A stretch of 64,000 nt of DNA. Source: Adineta ricciae. Its lineage: Eukaryota; Rotifera; Eurotatoria; Adinetida; Adinetidae. The DNA is taken from NCBI GenBank assembly GCA_905250025.1, contig CAJNOJ010000013.1, positions 124,001 to 188,000 on the forward strand, written 5' to 3'. The notes beneath the pieces were generated by a model, which was given only the letters and a program-made list of their open reading frames with translations, was not told the origin of the DNA and made no database searches. This document shows, in pieces, positions 25,036 to 59,506 of the stretch. Position 1 is the first letter of the stretch. Every line of letters starts with the position of its first letter. The position numbers and the translations under genes were made by a program.

Positions 25036-28000
25036 ATGAGAGCACTGTTTTTGCTCTACTATTTGTTCGTTCAATCGACGATTATCTACGGTAGGAGGAA
25101 GAGGAAAGTTAAAGCCTATGAATCACCATGAAAAATGCGCTATTCTTAGGTCTCAATCAATATTTGGGTTGCTTTGTTAATCCAAATGAGACACATGATT
25201 CTGAAATAATCATCGGTCAATATGAACAGCTGATTCCTGAACAATGTATTCGTGCATGTCAAGAAAACGACTATAATTACGCTTCTATTCAATATGGTAG
25301 TGAATGTCGATGTATTCAACAGTATGACGAGTTTGGTCAAGTGTCGGATGATGAATGTTATTATTCATGTGTGACATCCGAAAAATGTGGTGGTGACCAG
25401 AATCGAAAGAGTATTTACAATGTCTTGACATCTGTAACGCCAACTCGTACAGGTAGTTTGTTCTGTTCAAATCGAGAATTGATGTTGAAAGAAATGAGAC
25501 ATTTTGCGTTTGTTTAGATTCTGTGTGCTCGAATACATTCAAAGGTTATCAAGGTTGTTTTAATGACGTAATGTTCGCGACGGTGATAGGTGTTGTGGAG
25601 GCGGTGGAACAATGTTTGCTGTATTGTGCTGTAAACTTTAATTATGCAGGCATTAGTAATGGGTAAATCTTTTCCGAATTACAATCATATGACAATTTAT
25701 TGTGATATGCTTTAGTAATTTGTGTAAATGTGGTAATCATGCAAATCAATCTTCCGTAAATCCTACTCTATGCAATATTCCGTGTGGTCGAAATCAAAAC
25801 AACAAAGAAACGGTTTGCTGTGGTGGTTCATATGTACTCAGTGTCTACGACGTTAAGAATTATCGTTAGTATCACGACAGTTTACATCTATATTCGTAGA
25901 GGTATTTCGTATTTCTGAATTTGTTTTTAGCAACTCACTCGTACAAAGAACATGTTCGAGGTACGTGCACGATCAGACTTTGATCATCTATATATGTATC
26001 TATGATATTTTGTTTTTGTTTCAGTGAAACGAGCTGGTAAGAATCTTTGACAGAATGTTCTCTTCTGCTGAGAGTTTACCTCATTCTTAGTTTTATGTTA
26101 ACGGTTTCTTTTTCTAAAATGCTAACTCTACATAAATCTGCTAATTTGTTGTGTCTTCTTCATCGATATAGATTCTGTCAATAACGGATTCCAAACAGAA
26201 ATTTGCCAACCTATTCGACGCTTTTGCTTCTTATAATGCATATCTTCTTCTGCTATGAAAACCAATGACTGTTTGTCCTTGCTTAACAGAAAAAAGAAAC
26301 ACGGTTTATTGCAATTTCTGTGGATATCATTTCATTTGAGTTTACCTCTGGTTACCTTTTCCTTTCTATCTAGATGGAGATGCAACATTTGCTAGTGCAC
26401 AAACAACCGTTTCATCAATGAGCACTGCTATTTATCAATCAAATATGACTTACAATGTTAGTTCTGATCAGGTAACAACACAGGCTACTCTATTCAGCAC
26501 AACAACTGCAAATTCAACCAACAACTTAGTCGTCACATCAGCTAGTACTAATATAAATACCGCTGGATTAACAAGCATTATCCAAAATACTTCGTTATCA
26601 TCAACGGCCGCGGTTTCTTCAACAAATAATTTACAAGTGACAACAGCTACAATCGGAAACACTATTGCGTCTGCCAGTACGACTGCTTTCTCGAATGCTA
26701 CACTGAATGTTGGCACGTCTACGTTACTTCAACCAAATTCCACTCAAGCAAGTAGTGCACCGATCGTAACTACAATTCCGATAACTCAAGCATCATCATC
26801 ACATGCAGATACATCAAGTAGCTCGTCTACTTCTTCAACACTCAGTAGCACAATTGCGATAGGTACTACGGCCATGGCCAGTCTTATTACAAGTGCATCA
26901 ACCGCAACAACGATGGCAATAATAACAACAGCTGGTGTCACGTCGATGTCATCTGCACATGCAGATGCGAGCTCCATTGTTACTACAATCACATCACAAA
27001 TGCTGGTTACAACACAATCGTCAACTTCCGGATTGGTCCGTGACACAAGTATGAGTACAGCTCCATCAATACTCCCAAGTACACATCAAGTAACTACGAA
27101 TCCCACAACAAGCACTACACCTGTGTCAACATTCTCGACTGGATTCACAAGTCAATCAACTATCCAGGTAGACACATCTTCTAAAACATATACCAGTGTA
27201 CTGTCATCAATATCATCCACACTTACAACTCAAACTATTCAAAGCACAATAGTCACCACTACTAATGTGATGCAGACTTCCTCTGTGATATTGACAAGCT
27301 TGTCATCTCACTACACTGGTGTATCACAAGATACTAGCACTGCTATTTCTTCAATTTTATACACATCCGGCCCCACTGTACCAAGCACTAGTTCGTCACT
27401 AGCGCACATCGGTACATCCTCACATACAGACACAAGTCAAATGCTTTCTAGTGCACCCCCAAGCACGACTACGTTAACTACCGTGACTCAGTCAGCAACA
27501 GCAACTTCATTATCATTGCACACCGACACAACTCAACCACACACAAGTGCCTCACTAAACACTGTTTCTACAATGTTTAGCTCCCCCACAACATCGACCA
27601 ATTTATCGACGTTACACACAGATACATCAATGGCATCGCAGTCTGCTATGTCGTCGTCGTCATCATCTCCGCATACTGACACGAGTCAAACAGCTAGTAG
27701 CAGTGCCATAACAAGCACCATCATTACGATAACAGCATCGCCAACACATCTTTCGTCTTCATCGCTACACACGGATCTTAGTTCAGTCAGTAGTAGTATA
27801 ATGACGAGTATTCTACCAACAATTACGTCAACATCGCCTACTTCATTTTCAAGTGGCTCATCCCTGCATACAGACACAAGCCAAACTGCTAGTGTCAGTA
27901 CCATGACAAGTACCGTTATTACGATAACAGCATCGACAACACATCTCTCGTCTGTATCACCACATGCGGATCTTAGTTCTGTCTCCGGTGGTACAGTAAC

Positions 28001-31000
28001 AAGTACTATGGCGATAATTACATCACTGTCACCTACTTCATTCTCAAGTGGCTCATCCCTGCATACAGACACGAGTCAAACTGCTAGTATCAGCGCCATG
28101 ACAAGTACCGTTATTACGATAACAGCATCGACAACGCACCTTTCGTCTTCATCGCTACACATGGATCTTAGTTCAGTCGGTAGTAGTACAATGACGAGTA
28201 TTCTATCAACAATTACGTCAACGTCACCTACTTCATTCTCAAGTGGCTCATCCCTGCATACAGACACAAGCCACACTGCTAGTAGCAGTGCCATAACAAG
28301 CACCGTTATTACGATAACAGCATCGTCAACACATTTTTCGTCTTCATCGCTACACACGGATCTTAGTTCAGTCGGTAGTAGTACAATGACGAGTATTCTA
28401 TCAACAATTACGTCAACGTCACCTACTTTATTCTCAAGTGGCTCATCCCTGCATACAGACACGAGCCAAACTGCTAGTAGCAGTGCCATAACAAGTACCG
28501 TTATTACGGTAACAGCATCGACAACGCACCTTTCGTCTTCATCGCTACACACGGATCTTAGTTCAGTCGGTAGTAGTACAATGACGAGTATTCTATCAAC
28601 GATTACGTCAACGTCATCTACTTCATTCTCAAGTGGCTCATCCCTGCATACAGACACAAGCCACACTGCTAGTAGCAGTGCCATAACAAGTACCGTTATT
28701 ACGATAACAGCATCGACAACGCATCTCTCGTCTTTATCGCTACATACGGATCTTAGTTCTGTCTCCGGTGGTACAGTAACAAGTACTATGACAATAATCA
28801 CATCACTGTCACCTACTTCATTTTCAACTGGTATATCCTTGCACACAGATACAAGTCAAACTATCACGAGTACTAATGCCATGACAAATACAGCTACTAC
28901 GATCACAGCATCTGCAACTCATCTCTCGTCTGCATCATTACATACGGATTTCAGTTCAGTCAGTAGCAGTTCAATGGCAAATACTGTGACATTTACATCG
29001 ACACCGTCCATTTCACTCTCAAGTAGTAGATCTCTGTATACGGATACGAGTCAAAGTCTGGGTAGCTCACCAACATCGCACACTGCTACTTCATCAATGC
29101 AAACTAGTGGTGCATCATCTTTATCTCCAGGAACGTATACTAGTCAAACACTTACTAGTACAGCTGCTGCATTACACACTGATACATCGTCTGCAGTTAC
29201 AAGCCAAACGGTTAGTAGTTCAACACTATCTACCATGTGGTCGAGTCCTTCTTCTGCCTACACAAGCATGTCACACCAAACAAGCACTGGTATTTCGTCA
29301 TCGTTGCATACCGACACAAGTCAAATGGCAGTAACATCAACCATAAATACGCAGACCATAACTTTTACTTCGTCTTCTGTTATCAGCAGTCAAGGATCTA
29401 CATATACAGCAACTGCGGCTAGTTTTAGTTCAACATCAATTCATACTGATTCAAGTCAGATTACTAGCTCTTCATCAATTATTCTTTCAACGCTGACAAG
29501 CTCAAGATCAGACAGTACCTCAAGTTTGCTATTAGCATACACTAGTTATTCTTCAACAGCGTCATCGATGACGGCAACTTCCACTGCTTTTAGTAGCACA
29601 CAATCATCGTTGATGAGCTCAGCTACTACATTTACACACACTTCTGCAGCACCATCTACGTCAGTGTATACACATACATCAACTGTTGTGAGTTCTTCAG
29701 TAACATCTTCGAGTATACTACTGACTTCTTCTACTGGTACATCAAGTATTATTATGCAAACAACAGTTACCAGTGCTTCTTCCCCGTCTCCACATACAGG
29801 TAAGAACAATGAGCAAAATCCGACATTCTCATTTTAATTACCGCTTTTTACATTGACAGATACTACTTCTCAAACAACAGTAACAATAGGAAATTCGGCC
29901 AGTGCTATCACTACTGTCTCTTCTATTGTCAGCTCGCCCAGTTCTGTCGCAACGTCTACTGTTAGTACCAGTCAACACACAGCTTTTACAAGTGCGGCTA
30001 CGTCCGTGACAGCATCAGTATCTCAAACAACCGGACAAACGTCTACTAGTACTAGCACGACTACGACAACAGCGACTTCGCAGTCAAATATTATTGCTAC
30101 AGGTTTGATAGATTTGAAATGATTTATTCCTCAATAACTTTAGGTCGATATTTTTTGTTCTGTTTTAGTAATCAGAGTTTTCGGAACAAAACCGCTTAAT
30201 ACATCGGATTCAAACCAGATAGCTAGTCTCAAGAGTGGCTTAGCTGCTGTTATCACATTGGGTTTCCAGTGTTTAGCTAATCCATCATATTCGCAGTGTT
30301 CATCTTCGTCACGACGTAGACGTCAAACAACTTCTACTTACACTGTAGACATTATCGGAAATATAACGCAGGTGCGTATAGAAATACTGCTGTTTATGTT
30401 TGGAAAAGTTTCCTATAATTATCGTTCATCATCTTTCAGATTTCAAATTCTAATAATCCGCAACTGTATATGATCAATTATACCGTCACTGAAACAAACG
30501 GTAGTGGCAGTGCACAACTAGCTACAGATAAAGTGTACGTTGCTACACAAACTGTGCCACGAGATCAAATAGCGTCTTTGCTTGGTTTCGCAGTTGATGG
30601 TGATTTCGTCAGTAATGGTAAGGCAGCCACTGCGCCGTCCACCACTGATTCTAAACTATGGATTATTGGCGCTGTTCTGGGACCACTTTTTTTCGTCCTA
30701 TTACTCATTGGTTCAGGATGTTTCTTCTATTACAAATGTCGACCAAGACCGTATAACAACAGCAGTGCTCAAGTAATTCCATTTTAATTATCATCACTTT
30801 CTGTTTTCTATATCAGAATGCTTATTTTCTCGTTTAAGGCTGTTTACAATGCTCCACAAGCTCCTAATCCAACACAAGTAAGCTTGTAGAAAGATTACAG
30901 ACAGACGGCCACTGAATGTTTTGTTTTTAAATAGAATTATCAACGGATTTTGAATGAGCCACGAAAAGATCAGCCGACACCTACGACTAATATTCGGCAA

Positions 31001-32271: not shown

Positions 32272-32603
32272 AATTCTTTCTTATCTGTTGTACTCTTATG
32301 TGGTGCGATATACATGTTTATACGAATGCTTATTTATGCGGGAAAACTAAAATTCTCTTTCTTCTCTCTATTTTCGCTACATGGTTTGCTTATGTGAATG
32401 CTTAGTTGCTTTTTCCAGGGAATATTTGATTTCTTTACAACGAAGTATTCCTGTTGTTTTTCATAAATCAGTGATCTTTGTTCTTGTATCGTTAAAAAAT
32501 AAATAAATATTTGTGTGTTTTCACTTGGAAGCATTAATTCCGTTCGTGTTCAATCGTGAATGTATAATGAGAAGAGATTTTGAAGGTTAAAATATATTTT
32601 TAT
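32272..32603. other. Convergent 3' region
   Basis: 332 bp between the stops of the WSC/mucin gene (plus) and cyclin H (minus), with AATAAATAAATA near 32499 for the plus-strand transcript. No coding signal. Confidence 0.55.
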
Positions 32604-33899
32604 TTAACAAATAGAATTGGTCATGGCTAAACAGAAGGAAGAAGATATAGATATTATTTTCTTCCGGTGCAATTCGAGTATATTTACTAAATTTCTTGCT
32701 TCATAATCTGTTACAGCTTGAAATTGTTCCAAACGCCGCTTTTTGTATGCTTCTGTACGGGGATCATTGTCAGTATTGTAACATTTCTCCAACTTTTCGA
32801 TTATCTGTTTCACTTCGCTCTTTTTAAATTTCGCTGGTGTATTCACAGCATTGGCAATCACTAAAACGGCAATGATGTTTCATGTTCAACAACTCCAAAC
32901 GTCATTTACATCGAATTGTTTCTTTAACTTGTTGCATTTGAGCTGATTCTAATGAGCCATAAACATGCTTGAGAATGTAGTCATCAATATTGACTTTTGC
33001 CTTCACTGAAGCAAATACTAATGCTGTCAGGGCGATCTAAATACAAATTAGGTTATATTCCTTTGGGAAAATATCCACTTAGATTACCTGCGAGGGAGGA
33101 AAAAGAAAATAGACATCTGTTAGTAATGTTTTATCGAGAAATTCATAGCCAGTAACACGTAACTGATCAGCATCGTTGACATTTTCACGTAAATAATGAG
33201 TCTAATTTATTCAAACCGAAAAATTCATGAGAAAGTTGTCTTTGCTCAATGTCGTACTTTCAAATCAATAATTAAACCTTCGAATGGTCGATATGCAGTA
33301 TGTACAACCAATTGGAAATGAAGTTTTTCAATTAATAGAAGTTCATATGATAGAAGTATATCAGCTGTATGATTGACATTTGCACTTTCTTTGATATTGG
33401 CAACAAACTCTTCCATTGATATTCTTAATTCTTCCGTTTTGCCAGTTAAATATATACAGATTAGACTAGAAGAAGAAAAAAAACGTTTGCTTATCGAAGA
33501 TCGTCATTTTTTACTAGATATCTCTGGGATGATATTCCATGACGGAATTATTCAAATAAAAGCGTTTGAAATATTGCATCGCCACAGCCTAGAAAAGGAG
33601 TATTTTTCACACACGCGTAGATTTTTCAACATACAATGGCCATCTTTGTCATTGGCGGTCGAAACTTCTCACAAAAATCTTTCAGTTGGATTTCATAATA
33701 GCGTATAACCATAGCTTCTTCTTCCACAGTTAAACAATCTCGCGATACCTATTTGATTTCAAGAAACACATTGAATTCATCGGGATTCATTCGAACTTAC
33801 ATGTTTTTGCACATATTCAGCATTTGTCTTCGCACGTAGATCTTTCAACTGCTCGACAGTGAATAGCCATTGAGTGTACTGCGTACTTAAATGATACAT
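32604..33899 (-). CDS. CCNH: Cyclin H, CDK-activating kinase subunit
   Basis: Regulatory subunit of the CDK7-cyclin H-MAT1 kinase of TFIIH, acting in transcription initiation and CDK activation. Seven exons (33899-33801, 33748-33635, 33588-33515, 33465-33258, 33201-33088, 33036-32910, 32860-32604) join in phase to about 330 residues, matching the family. Signature blocks: EEEAMVIRYYE, YFKRFYLNNSVMEYHPR, LTGKTEE, SYELLLIEKLHFQLVVHTAYRPFEGLIIDLK and FPPSQIALTALVFASVKA (second cyclin box). The ATG at 33899-33897 follows the TAG stop of NUDT22 (33902-33900) with no base in between, and that TAG is preceded by a pyrimidine-rich tract, so it reads as a splice acceptor. Confidence 0.94.
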
Positions 33900-33914
33900 C
33901 TACAAAAATAATCG
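33897..33914 (-). promoter_or_regulatory. Putative trans-splice acceptor shared with a stop codon
   Basis: On the minus strand the sequence reads ATTATTTTTGTAG then ATG. TAG is the in-frame stop of NUDT22, its AG is a good 3' splice site, and ATG starts cyclin H. With no upstream room for a cyclin H 5' UTR, the simplest reading is spliced-leader addition at this AG. Inference from sequence; not shown by transcript data. Confidence 0.5.
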
Positions 33915-34843
33915 AGAATAAGCAGACACAGTCGCGTGACAAGCTGGTGTTATCGAAATAGATGTTGAAGAAAGGTTCACAAGATCAGAAATGTTCTCTA
34001 ATGGCCAAAATTTCAATTCACTAGATTCGAATGCTTCGGTATGCGTTTGAAGATCATAACGTTGTTGCAATTCATTCGATGACATGGATGTTCTAGAAAA
34101 GCAACAATTGTATTAAAATTATTTTTCGTAACATTCATACCGAAGACAAGACTCAACAGCAGGTCGACCGTGTTGATTTAAATTACGCGTAATTATAAGA
34201 ATGAAGAAAAATGAGTCAACGAGAAGCGTAGTTCGATCAACATTCGTCTCATCGACACATTCAGCAATGGTTGATAAACGAATTTCGTCGATAATATCTT
34301 GTTTCGAATACGATTTCGCATTTCTGAAACGACAAAAGTTAATAGACTTTCATTCAATTCTTGAACTTACTTCGGTTCGGGATGACCACCGGGTAAATCA
34401 TAAAGATTTGGTGAATCTACACAGTTAGAATTTCGCTTTATCAAAACGATCTTATCGTCCGAGGTTATCAGTAGACATCCGACACCCAGAGGATGTGAGA
34501 GATGATCTTCAGTTATATATTGACGAATATCATTCGATAATTTTTGTTGTTGTGTGCAAATAAACGATTTGTAATCAGTTAAGCCAAGTTTGAGCACAAA
34601 TTCATTGGTATTTTCATCGGTCGTTTTCGTTTCAATGGAATGTAATCGAAACTTGGATTCATTGAAGAGAACGCGCCCTGGTTTTGTATCAGCTAATAAT
34701 TGATTCCATCTTTCATCTAACTTTTCCTGAATATCATCCGGCAACGATTTCGCGTTGTACAACTCAGGATTGAAATCAATCAATAATTCATCGAATTTCA
34801 ATGGTTTGTTCAAGTTTAATATATCAACCCAAGTTGAAAACAT
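33900..34843 (-). CDS. NUDT22: Nudix hydrolase, NUDT22-like (UDP-sugar hydrolase)
   Basis: Homologue of NUDT22, which hydrolyses UDP-glucose/galactose to UMP and sugar phosphate. Three exons (34843-34371, 34323-34141, 34092-33900) join to about 282 residues. The match covers the family-specific N-terminal half (FRLHS, LKLGLTDYK, SHPLGVGCLLIT), the DLPGGHPEPK start of the Nudix box, and the remainder of that box in exon 2 (DEIRLSTIAECVDETNV), which is atypical as in the family. The C-terminal residues (AYSRLFL) are also the polypyrimidine tract of the next gene's acceptor. It lies 107 bp downstream of MRPS18A and abuts cyclin H, all on the minus strand. Confidence 0.88.
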
Positions 34844-34950
34844 TTATATACTAAAAACAATGAATTCATAGATTAGAGTGTTGCTCATTTTATTTTGTAA
34901 GTGTAACTATCTTTTATTTAAAAAAACAACAACAAACAAACACACGCAAT

Positions 34951-35681
34951 CTACGGTCCGAGATAGTGACCTTTCTTTTTCAATACTTCATATTTCTCCC
35001 AATAAGAATTGTATTGTTCGAATTCAGGTCTTAATGTTGGATCAACAAGAAGCGGTTCACGTTTGGTGACAGCAACAGTTGGATATGAAATGAGACCAGT
35101 CATTCGAGCTTGACGAATCAACGTATGCAATTTATCGTTCTGTTTCGGACATAAACCGGTGATCTCAGGAGGAAGAATAGTGCCATCTTTTCGAAGGTAT
35201 TGTCGAAGAACAAGAACATCCTTAACGACAAGAATACGATTTGAAAACATTGAAATCACTCGTTTTCTCATACAGTATGTTGAATGTGAATAGAACGACG
35301 ATCGAATTTACACCAAAGACATACTTGTTCAGGTCCGGATAATTTCAGAACATTCTTTTCATTGTCGTCAATATATTCTCCTTCATACTAAATACAATCA
35401 AGCAAGTCATAATTCGTAAGAAATTCATTTAAACTTACGGTAATTACATTGCCTTCAACTTTTTCTGTGACTAAAATGAAACGATGGGATTTTTAGATAA
35501 TATCACTCAACAAAATCTATCGAAGTCGTGATCTCATCGATTCACATGTTGTGAGCTTAGTCGATGCACGAATCTTCTTACTTTTCTTCAGTCCGACTGT
35601 CTGTGTCAAATGAAATAATCGTTTTGATGATGCTAAAACGTTCGGATTCACCAATTTAACTACGGACAAGAACTTCAACAT
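34951..35681 (-). CDS. MRPS18A: Mitochondrial ribosomal protein S18A (mL66)
   Basis: Mitoribosome component of the bS18 family. Four exons (35681-35582, 35470-35439, 35387-35274, 35220-34951) join to about 171 residues. The N-terminus (MLKFLSVVKLVN, basic, no acids) fits a mitochondrial presequence. The core has VCLWCKF (a Cys pair), DVLVLRQYLRKDGTILPPEITGLCPKQ and LIRQARMTGLI. The TILPPEITGLC form and the preceding EGNVITYEGEY block favour the S18A paralogue over S18B or S18C. TTTTGCAG stands directly before the ATG. Confidence 0.85.
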
Positions 35682-36177
35682 CTGCAAAAGAAATCTTTCG
35701 TCGACTGTATTTAATTATTTGTTAATATTTGTCGGGTAGAAATAAAGCAAAACAAGATATCACGATGTTTAATAAAATAAGGATTTGAAAAAAAAAACAT
35801 ACACATCAACAAAAACGTATTCTCGGAACATTCAAATTTAGAAAGGAACTTTCCAAACAGTCATACTCACTCAATAGGATCGTGATCGAAATCTGAACAT
35901 GGCACAAAAAACAGACGTAAGAACTCATTTTGCATGTGCATATGTATTTGATCAATGATATGTACTAAGCCAACTATACAGATATACAAATAAGCAAGAA
36001 AAATGAGAAAATGCTCGGTATATACGTGAAATAGAAAAGAAGACAAGCATTCTCGGATAAGTTGAAATCGACAAAACAATCATTTGAATAAATAGAAAAG
36101 ATAAATCGTCGTTTGTCTCGTCTATATGGAATGAAAATGACACAACACTGTTGGAAATGGATATGATATGCATATTT
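35682..36177. other. Short intergenic region
   Basis: About 500 bp between the Munc18 stop and the MRPS18A start, both on the minus strand. Open frames here are AT-rich and without domains. Confidence 0.5.
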
Positions 36178-39622: not shown

Positions 39623-41623
39623 ATGAAGAATCAAAATTCGATTTCGAAGCCGGCTGTTATCATCAAGCCTCCTTCGTCTGTATCAGCAGTGCCGTCGGCG
39701 AAAAAAGACAAGTTGCCATTGGAGAAGAAAATGAATTTGGAAGCGAAACAACAGCAAAATCCGACTGATAACGTTACTTCACCCAACAATGACCCCGCAG
39801 TAAATACGAATGAACTAGCAGCAGCAGCTGAAACACCTTCGACACCGCTCACTGATAAAGTAATGGAACTTATTCGTCAGGATATAGAACTTTATTTGAG
39901 AGTGCCCACTCGATTGATTAATTACATTAATCAAAGCTAGTGAATGAATGGAGAAACGAAATGAACACATCAGTTTTGTTTTGTTGACTGAATAGATCAG
40001 TGATGTTTATTATCTGTACGAAAGATGACTTGAGGCTGTAATATCCATTAGAAATGATGGTTTCATCATACGAGAAAAGAAAATCTTTTAAATAGTCGAC
40101 AAAAAAGCACTCTTATACGCATGTCCTTGACATTGTTCTATTTTTGGTTTGCTGGTCGAATAGAAATCCATTAGATGATTAGAAGATATTAATTTGCAAT
40201 GCATGAACTTTTTCTTGTTTAGGAAGCGAAAGAACAAGAGATAATTATTTACGAATTTCACTTTCCTGTGGAACTATGCGGTCGTCTTATTGGTCGACAA
40301 GGTGTTCACGTGGATTACATTCGACAAATGACTCAAGTTGATTTAGTTGTACGTGACGATGCTGTTTCGTACGAAAAGCAAGTCGTGGCTTTACACGGTT
40401 GGGCACTATTATAACTCTTTAAGAAACTTCTTTCAATGAAAACTACAAATCTAGGTCGCCGAGTTGATATTGAACAAGCAATTGAACTCATCGCTAAACG
40501 TTTTCCACCTGAACGTTATCCTCAAGTTGCTTTCAAACCTATTAACAAGAAAATCGTTCTACGACAACGTCCACCCGAACGTGTGCCAATTCCTCAGGGT
40601 GTTGCTCAAGTATGTTCATACCTCTTAACGTAATTAAACAAGCATAACTGACATCTTCCTGATCTAGCTCAATCTTCCTGATGGTATACCTACAGAAGTA
40701 CTTGTTACAAGTGTTGTTTCCTGTAATCACATATTCGTACAACAAATTTTACATCCATCCTATGCTGAACTTGCTCGTCTTGATAATTCTATGTCAGTTT
40801 TCTATCATCATACTGAAATGACGCCACCTCTACCTCGACCTATTCAAAGTAATTATTATTCATTTCGAGATTATAAACTCATCACTCAACTATTTAGCGG
40901 GTGTTATATGTGCAGCGCCAACACAAGCAGGTTGGTTTCGAGCATTAATCACAGTATATAACAGTAATGACGACATGGCTATGATAAAATTTCTCGATTA
41001 TGGAGGCTACCTCTATGTAGATGCAAGCTCCTTACGTGTTCTCAGGTAAGCTGGATTAGCTTGAAGAATAATTGAAAGACAAATAATGATGATTGATGTA
41101 GACAAGATTTCATGGTTATCCCATTTCAAGCAGCTGAAGTCTATCTCGATAGCGTTGTGCCGCCGGGTAGTGAGTACTATTTGACTTACTTTTCTGAATA
41201 GCTTTAATCGGATGAAAAACATGGAATTTAGATCAAGAGGATTTTACACCGGAATCCATCGAATTAGTCAAACCGACGATTCTCGGCTCGTGCTTTAAAG
41301 CGCTGGTTACTGGATATCATTATGATAATACACCATTCATTCAATTATCGAAACGCTTAGATTTTGTAAATATTTTCACATTGAGACATTCGATTAACAA
41401 GGGAAGCTGATCTTCTTTTTGTTTCTAGCAACGTCTCGTGAATATTGATATACAGAAGATGATAAACAGTCAACAGCAAACGTCGACTGCACATGATTCG
41501 AACACAACGCACAATGTACCTACTACTACTCCAAATTCAACTGGTCAACCGATGACAAATCAATTTCAACAATCCGTATCGGATGTGTCGACTTTGTCAT
41601 CAACAACCAATTCAGACAGTTGA
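39623..41623 (+). CDS. AKAP1: AKAP1-like protein, KH plus Tudor domain
   Basis: Homologue of A-kinase anchor protein 1 (Drosophila spoonbill), which tethers PKA and mRNAs to the mitochondrial outer membrane. Eight exons (39623-39859, 40223-40397, 40455-40609, 40668-40848, 40898-41045, 41102-41166, 41232-41365, 41429-41623) join to about 429 residues. A polar N-terminus is followed by a KH domain (FPVELCGRLIGRQGVHVDYIRQ, with the GxxG loop as GRQG) and an extended Tudor domain (LPDGIPTEVLVTSVVS, HIFVQQILHPSYAEL, GVICAAPTQAGWFRALI, FLDYGGY, IPFQAAEVYLDSV). The visible N-terminus shows neither the mitochondrial anchor helix nor the PKA RII-binding helix of vertebrate AKAP1, so an upstream exon may be missing or the protein may lack them. 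Confidence 0.88.
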
Positions 41624-57514: not shown

Positions 57515-57703
57515 CTTCAAAAGAACAAACAAGAAATTGTTTTTTCTCTTTCAATTCATTTTTTAATCCAGTAACACACACGCACAGATAGATTTTTGCT
57601 TTTATCGAAAAACATCTGGGTGTACGAAGAAAACAAAAGACAAACAAACAAAAATTTCGTCCTGTTCTCATCGTTTTGACCGATGATTATGTCTACGAAT
57701 TCT

Positions 57704-59506
57704 TCACGACGAGGGTTTTAGAAGATTAGTTGCTGTACTCGCAGCAGGAAACAATTTGTGATACGATTGCGTTGGAATATAATTACCAACAACGGTTCGA
57801 CCAGAAAAGAATCGTCCGTGAAGTGCATTGACTGTGTTGATCGCTAAAAATCAACAAGAAATACTTTTTTCTCAATTCAATTTGGTGAACTTACCGCTGG
57901 CAATAGTTGAACATTTAACATAAACATTGCCGTCAGGACTTTTCTCGTCCACATAGATATGCACGACGCCACCATATTTGTTACATTCGTCGATCACTTC
58001 ATCTTGAATTTCTTGTACCCAGTGAGGATTTCCAACTTCATTAGCTGGATTAAACATGTTTGAAAGCATGAAGCATTGTGTACCAACAGCTGTGACAGTT
58101 GCTAATTGTTGAGGATTTGGTGGTTCAGGAACACGAACTTGCTGAGAATTAGATGCATGCATATGTGCAGCTTGTAATGCATCCATCGCATGTTTAGGCA
58201 TTTGTAAGCCACTGCCTTCACTGAGTTTAGCCATTAGCGCTAAACGTCCAGTAGCGCCTAGATTAATACCACGATGGTCAAGATCATCAGAATCGAGATT
58301 GGATGAAGAAGAGAACGCAGAAGCAATACCAGTTGAATACTGAGGTAGACTAGCACCGGTAGTAGCTTCACCAGGTCGTTCTGTAACATGTCCAACTTTC
58401 ATCGGTCGTCCAGCTAGCTCAAAACCATTTAGATTTTCCATGGCGCGTTTTGCATCTTCGGCATGTGCAAATTGAATAAATCCTAGAAAACAAGCAATCA
58501 ACCTAGCACATGACTTTTTCTTATCAAACTTACCATATCCTCTCGATCGGCCTGTATCGGCATCTTTCATCAGTGTGACGTTATCGATTCGTCCAAACGG
58601 CTCGAATATTCCACGTAGCATATCTTCGGTTATGTTGAAATGCAACGATCCAACATATACTTTCATTGGTCCATGTGTGGGTATAATAGATGCATTCAAT
58701 GCTGCGGTACCATTATTCAAAAGAGCATTTTGAGCAGCAGTCGCTTGTGCAGCTTGAGCCGCCAGACGATTCTTTTCTGCATTGGACGGTTTGATAATAA
58801 TTGGTATTCCGAGAACTTTTTCTCCTGAGAGAGCGAGAGCTGCTTGAACACAAGCTAAATCACGAAATTCAACGTATGCAACACCTTTTGATCGCCGTGT
58901 TCGAGGATCTGTGATTAAGCGAACGTCGCGTACTTTACCAACACGTGTGAAGAATTCTTCGAGATCACGCGGGCGAATCATTGCTGCTAGCTGCATACCT
59001 TTAAGAAACAAAAAACACGGCGTTGCATATTCGGAATCGATCTCAGTAAAACAGTTTTGCTCGTTCTTACAAAATACAGTTCGAAGATCGCGTTCTTCTG
59101 GTGTTAATTCCGGTGATTTCTCTCGACGACCAGATTTTGATGACGCTGCACCGCCGTCTCTTGCCTGTGCTCGTTTATTCAATGTTTGTGCTAATTGATG
59201 CAATTCTGAAGTCGTATCTCGGCGTTTTCCACTGGACAACACAGGTGGTGATGGTTCGCGTGGACGTCGTTCGATTGGCGAGCTACTACGTTTTGGTGAG
59301 CGACTTCGTTTACGTTCATGTTTCTTGTCACTCTTGTGTGATTTGTGATGTTTATGATGCTTGTGTTTCCTATGCTTTTTATCTTTATCTTTATCCTTAT
59401 CTTTTTTATCCCCATTTGTATCTATAGTATCTTTCTGTTGGTTTTTCTGTACATCTTCATGCATCCTTTCTTCCAGCATACGTTCGATTTCCATGTCGTC
59501 ATCCAT
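57704..59506 (-). CDS. RBM39: RNA-binding splicing factor RBM39 (CAPER-alpha)
   Basis: U2AF-related splicing factor and transcription coactivator. Four exons (59506-59071, 58998-58534, 58482-57895, 57843-57704) join to about 542 residues. A short acidic start leads to a KDKDK/HKHHK and RS-type region (SRSPKRSSSP), then RRM1 (RTVFCMQLAAMIRPRDLEEFF), RRM2 (MKVYVGSLHFNITEDMLRGIFEPFGRI, near-identical to other animals), the linker GRPMKVGHVTER and LGATGRLALMAKL, and a C-terminal UHM (CFMLSNMFNP, IDECNKYGGVVHIYV, GRFFSGRTVVGNYI). Introns 1 (72 nt) and 2 (51 nt) are both multiples of three and stop-free, so the frame reads through them; conserved joins show they are introns. An AG acceptor lies 3 nt before the ATG. 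Confidence 0.95.

Follow-up and report, generated by a model that had tools for sequence, protein, structure and literature searches.

Can three nucleotides end one gene and, at the same time, provide the splice site of the next? The question is raised by a junction on the minus strand of a 64,000-nucleotide stretch of the genome of the bdelloid rotifer Adineta ricciae (here called the window), where the stop codon of a NUDT22 gene runs straight into the start codon of a cyclin H gene. A preliminary description of this DNA took the TAG to be both the NUDT22 stop and a spliced leader (SL) acceptor for cyclin H. From the arrangement of the sequence, we consider it probable that cyclin H belongs to a three-gene operon and receives an SL immediately in front of its ATG.

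In this arrangement, an S18-type ribosomal protein gene, NUDT22 and cyclin H would be transcribed as a single pre-mRNA (Table 1). The SL RNA would be trans-spliced at the AG with which the NUDT22 stop codon ends, and the last NUDT22 codons would double as the polypyrimidine tract. The resulting cyclin H mRNA would begin with the SL followed at once by the ATG, and thus the leader, which ends in ...AAGAG, would be the whole 5' UTR and would supply the purine at -3. NUDT22 itself would be supplied by pre-mRNA that escapes the cut.

Table 1. Features of the NUDT22-cyclin H junction and its surroundings, in window coordinates
Feature	Position	Strand	Basis or remark
S18-type ribosomal protein gene, upstream cistron	34951..35681	-	Pfam Ribosomal_S18; start inferred, exons only partly modelled
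Proposed NUDT22 acceptor, AG ends at 34851, 7 bases before the NUDT22 ATG	34844..34870	-	10.19 bits
NUDT22 gene, 3 exons (34843-34371, 34323-34141, 34092-33900), 282 aa	33900..34843	-	Spliced model, GT-AG introns
Junction CGATTATTTTTGTAGATG: T-rich final NUDT22 codons, TAG stop, cyclin H ATG	33897..33914	-	Read directly
TAG, stop codon of NUDT22, with the AG proposed as SL acceptor	33900..33902	-	9.26 bits, 17-intron matrix
ATG, cyclin H start	33897..33899	-	Aligned with solved cyclin H from the first residue of each (MYH)
Cyclin H gene, 330 aa, 7 exons separated by 6 introns (46-56 bases)	32604..33899	-	Spliced model
First AATAAA downstream of NUDT22, within intron 4 of cyclin H	33206..33211	-	691 bases from the stop
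AATAAA overlapping the cyclin H stop, likely its poly(A) signal	32599..32604	-	Signal at 2

Two conserved genes in contact

Direct reading of the minus strand upholds what the preliminary description reported of the junction, namely its coordinates, the TAG that ends NUDT22 and the zero spacing to the ATG. The coding end of NUDT22 is ...CGA TTA TTT TTG TAG, and the cyclin H ATG adjoins it with 0 bases between, so that two same-strand genes meet without intercistronic sequence, as in a zero-gap operon. The gene identities given there likewise agree with matches to solved structures. The closest solved relative of the NUDT22 model is NUDT22 (5lor, E 1.5e-24), with residues 56-279 of 282 aligned; a Pfam search with this protein returned zero families at E 0.001. 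The cyclin H model matches the Pfam family Cyclin_C_2 (E 1.1e-18), and its alignment with solved cyclin H (E 1.5e-58) opens at the first residue of each protein (MYHLSTQ vs MYHNSSQ). This alignment from the first residue identifies the ATG at 33899 as a conserved start, and a conserved start makes it unlikely that the zero spacing is an accident of modelling.

The two frames are in phase across the stop codon (...SRLFL*MYHLS...), and readthrough would thus produce a NUDT22-cyclin H fusion. The phase is exact, as a fusion would have it, but this is no evidence because zero spacing forces it, and conservation of the MYH start favours a free N-terminus. A transcript in which the cyclin H ATG directly follows NUDT22 exon 1 or 2, a candidate that we ruled out, would be out of frame (remainder 2 for both). 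We regard a readthrough product as extremely improbable.

The T-rich tract before the stop is made of codons in ordinary use, with TTA and TTG accounting for 32% and 21% of Leu codons and TTT for 60% of Phe codons. Built from common codons, it requires no special selection. What is unusual about the junction is its context, with two conserved coding regions in contact.

A strong predicted acceptor within the stop codon

We scored acceptors with a matrix built on 17 introns in this gene cluster, taken from predicted gene models (one of ten additional acceptors was not found and was left out). The AG at 33900 reaches 9.26 bits, above 15 of the 17 intron acceptors when each is scored with itself left out. 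The earlier view of this AG as a good 3' splice site is borne out by this score, and we consider the predicted site good, with a rank that rests on few introns in predicted gene models. Across the window, an equal or higher score is found for 25 of the 3,400 minus-strand AGs and for 21 of the 797 minus-strand TAGs. Besides the missing intercistronic sequence, the junction thus has another mark of a zero-gap operon, a strong (predicted) acceptor at the downstream gene.

The TAG might instead be just a stop, placed against the ATG by chance or by a sequence error, while the SL joins elsewhere, for example at another AG in NUDT22 exon 3. TAG is an ordinary stop and the T-rich codons are common; moreover, no ATG starts in exon 3 past 34057, so that from an acceptor further upstream in that part the first ATG reached would again be that of cyclin H. 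An earlier matrix of 8 introns did place the AG at 33996, inside NUDT22, at 7.8 versus 7.64 for the AG at 33900. With the 17-intron matrix, however, the AG at 33996 drops to 0.16, and all other AGs from 34092 to 33900 score at most 3.73 bits against 9.26. A merely fortuitous contact, with the leader joined elsewhere, appears highly improbable to us.

Spliced leader genes in the genome

Allowing up to two mismatches, a search for the 23-base rotifer SL found 44 copies in the genome versus 0 for the reversed pattern. The first base is T in all 44 copies, versus G in the published leader, and the rest is identical in 41 of them. A GT donor lies directly 3' of every copy inspected (copies from 30 of the 44 places). 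The genome thus holds genes for the 23-base rotifer SL RNA with GT donors, which makes SL trans-splicing available to it, in keeping with the SL-type junction of the preliminary description.

Apart from base 1, this SL is the one given in Table 1 of PMC3795323, and it matches, with the same exception, the leader of bdelloid SL trans-splicing (Adineta ricciae, Philodina). PMC1925144 reports the SL on more than 50% of transcripts in two bdelloid species. Because T stands at base 1 in all 44 listed copies, the encoded leader may be 22 bases long, and the first G of the published sequence may come from the cap.

The SL RNA genes often occur as divergent pairs, with leader starts about 130 bases apart (loci L010-L037, for example contig C6 235175-235350). 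U2 snRNA genes (Rfam 143 and 142.4 bits) were also found inside the 3-kb SL loci, in two of the six that were searched (L021:1037-1232 and L033:1041-1236).

A candidate three-gene operon

The gene upstream of NUDT22 carries a Pfam Ribosomal_S18 match (E 6.1e-13) on 35271-34954, and we infer that this S18-type protein is mitochondrial. Its stop lies on the same strand, 100 bases from the end of the proposed NUDT22 acceptor. The S18 ATG comes directly after an AG at 35682 that scores just 2.72 bits. The tight same-strand spacing, 100 and then 0 bases, makes S18, NUDT22 and cyclin H look like one operon. A Sec1-family gene (Pfam E 2e-24) lies further upstream on the same strand; its stop is 496 bases away from the AG that precedes the S18 ATG, and it may or may not be part of the operon.

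Protein searches with NUDT22 and cyclin H returned a single locus, plus three weak cyclin matches of 24-25% identity. At the DNA level, the window from about 22000 to 45000 has a collinear homeologous segment on contig C1 (421260-441490), with pieces of 66-85% identity. This DNA comparison gave no hit to any of the three genes in the segment, and right after the Sec1 end on that contig, the 2,351 bases read hold no trace of the S18-NUDT22-cyclin H block (best tblastn E 0.29); 923 bases of gap (428,677-429,599) lie outside this search. Judged by this comparison of sequences, the three-gene block appears to behave as a unit, in what is a single instance.

A second operon-like pair is found on the minus strand of the window at 57515-57706, where an RBM39-like gene precedes a gene that matches THUMP weakly (18.6 bits, under the Pfam cut-off of 20.6). 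Here, 189 bases separate the stop from an AG that touches the ATG.

The 3' end of NUDT22

Counting from the first base of the NUDT22 stop codon, the nearest A[AT]TAAA downstream lies at 691 bases, and the next, at 1,298, is that of the cyclin H end. Other minus-strand genes have their first signal at 35 bases (S18), 2 bases (cyclin H) and 407 bases (Sec1-family). For three further frames, the ends of which are not firm gene ends, the values are 307 (RBM39-like), 703 (gamma-tubulin-complex) and none in 1.5 kb (THUMP), while on the plus strand the first signal comes at 229 in one frame and at 695 in another. The missing near signal fits a dependence of the NUDT22 3' end on the junction, but it is weak evidence because other gene ends in the window likewise lack a near signal. 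The C. elegans SL1-type operons differ on this point: Williams et al. reportedly described, in 1999, that in nematode SL1-type operons a poly(A) signal immediately precedes the site of trans-splicing, whereas the end of NUDT22 has no A[AT]TAAA close by.

The preliminary description had foreseen NUDT22 poly(A) sites within cyclin H. The AATAAA in intron 4 is compatible with this, although the indication is weak, other ends being signal-poor as well. It had further suggested that one pre-mRNA may give NUDT22 or cyclin H but perhaps not both. That is one possible outcome, and it is not forced by the sequence, since NUDT22 would keep its entire frame, stop included, if the cut falls after the AG. 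Whether the NUDT22 fragment serves as an mRNA would depend on 3'-end processing.

A bolder idea, which we put forward tentatively and hold to be rather doubtful, is a switch of one codon. Trans-splicing at the stop codon would make the cyclin H mRNA together with a NUDT22 RNA that ends exactly in UAG. This RNA might be tailed there, giving two messages, one without a 3' UTR and the other without a genomic 5' UTR, or it might be lost, in which case each pre-mRNA would yield either a Nudix hydrolase or a CDK7 cyclin.

RNA that runs uncut to the cyclin H signal would carry six introns past the NUDT22 stop, with the first donor 99 bases on. Such an RNA could be a bicistronic mRNA translated by termination and reinitiation at UAGAUG, with no splice there, and the contact between stop and start would suit that mode of translation. 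However, introns downstream of a stop attract nonsense-mediated decay in many animals, and six cyclin H introns after the NUDT22 stop make a layout prone to it. In addition, the genome has an SL system and the junction a strong predicted acceptor. In yeast, UAAAUG bicistrons are translated by 80S reinitiation, which longer spacers of 10, 30 and 50 bases lower (PMC11952965), but this case required an activated strain. We consider reinitiation at the NUDT22-cyclin H junction very unlikely.

Relation to known zero-gap operons

With the SL joined directly to the cyclin H ATG, as we prefer to read it, we judge the junction to be a variant of the known zero-gap SL operon and not a new mechanism. In Ciona intestinalis, published descriptions have the genes of SL operons directly abutting and resolved by a single SL (PMC2760879, PMC7986045); with SLOPPR, 1,128 operons are given at a 1-base limit versus 1,172 at an inferred 84-base limit (PMC7986045). 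The zero gap is common to both systems, whereas by those descriptions the abutment in Ciona is one of annotated mRNA ends, and here it is one of coding parts, with the proposed acceptor in a stop codon. SL1-type operons of C. elegans (mes-6/cks-1 type) have no intercistronic sequence; by the definition in PMC12582326, polyadenylation of the first gene takes place right against the SL acceptor of the second. The RP S14-PCNA operon of the chaetognath Spadella is an SL-resolved pair like the one proposed here, with 3 bases between poly(A) site and acceptor (PMC2481426), although its spacing is measured between mRNA ends, not coding sequences.

Rotifer operons are entered as 'ND' in Table 4 of PMC2481426, and no bdelloid rotifer operon appeared among the literature matches listed. 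A search of the open-licence literature, covering parts of the texts, found no description of a stop codon that overlaps an acceptor without a UTR on either side.

If the SL joins at 33899, the genes would be packed as tightly as is possible for an SL operon, with one trinucleotide acting as stop and splice acceptor and with coding sequence acting as polypyrimidine tract. Such a junction would raise directly the question of how the 3' end of the upstream message is formed, and would draw attention to operons in bdelloid rotifers. Gene predictors are prone to fusing zero-gap pairs of this kind, and such fusion is reported for Ciona (PMC2760879).

Stop and start codons in contact across the genome

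The 12-mer TTTTTNTAGATG occurs at 383 places in the genome versus 403 for the reversed pattern, and hence is not enriched. All 100 of the 383 places that were listed were examined, including NUDT22-cyclin H and window 39623, and 40 of 100 listed TAA-ATG places (694 in total) served as a control. Assessed from open frames and by eye, the other 99 places include no clear instance in which the end of one gene is fused to the start of another. Both sides have 25 or more open codons at 9 of the 100 TAG-ATG places, NUDT22-cyclin H being one, and at 2 of the 40 controls; at the eight remaining two-sided places, coding on both sides was not apparent by eye. Thus, NUDT22-cyclin H does not represent a regular junction type in this genome, and the exact fused form probably makes up a few percent of the TTTTTNTAGATG places at most.

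Frames of at least 55 codons from the ATG are found at 22 of 100 TAG-ATG places versus 2 of 40 TAA-ATG places (Fisher p 0.014); the remaining two reading frames give 16 of 200. The difference is 27 of 100 versus 6 of 40 at a cut-off of at least 40 codons (p 0.19) and 40 of 100 versus 13 of 40 at one of at least 25 (p 0.45), and frames after TAG-ATG and TAA-ATG show no difference in length distribution (Mann-Whitney p 0.55). Because the cut-off was not fixed beforehand and the excess depends on it, the evidence that gene starts recurrently have an AG right before the ATG is suggestive only. For open frames that run into the TAG, the corresponding counts are 16 of 100 versus 1 of 40 at a minimum of 40 codons (p 0.04) and 36 of 100 versus 13 of 40 at a minimum of 20 (p 0.84).

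Genome counts for TTTTTCAGATG (434, vs 304 for TTTTTCAGATC) and for TTTTTNTAGATG (383, vs 333 for TTTTTNTAGATC) were rejected as proof of start-codon acceptors, because the base rates of ATG and ATC differ. Nine pairs among the 100 places are copies with 92-96% identity (alleles or repeats), and a tenth similar pair is the overlap of two sampled stretches. In one homologous pair (L075/L127), TTTTTCTAG followed by ATG is kept in both copies, which at 94% identity is weak evidence of constraint.

Most long frames after TTTTTNTAG in the sample have just a short open frame into the TAG, and TTTTTNTAG sites therefore seem also to serve genes other than zero-distance downstream cistrons. Cyclin H might be such a gene, with a promoter inside NUDT22 or an upstream cis-spliced leader exon, so that the AG at 33900 would be an acceptor and there would be no operon; the acceptor and the start would appear identical in that case. 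The tight same-strand cluster of three genes, spaced by 100 and 0 bases, speaks against this, and we consider a separate promoter or leader exon for cyclin H unlikely.

Several individual loci were observed alongside this survey. At L109, a coding-looking upstream frame seems, by eye, to end about 87 bases before a gene start of the form TTTTTNTAG plus ATG, a likely operon-like arrangement. On the plus strand of the window, a 105-codon frame (39623-39940) has its ATG directly after TTTTTTTTTTGTAG (12.97 bits); it gave zero Pfam matches at E 0.01. Just 17 open codons run into its TAG, and so this place looks like a trans-spliced gene start, not a zero-gap junction. Also on the plus strand, 26418-29837 holds a frame of 1,139 codons that is Ser/Thr-rich, repetitive and mucin-like.
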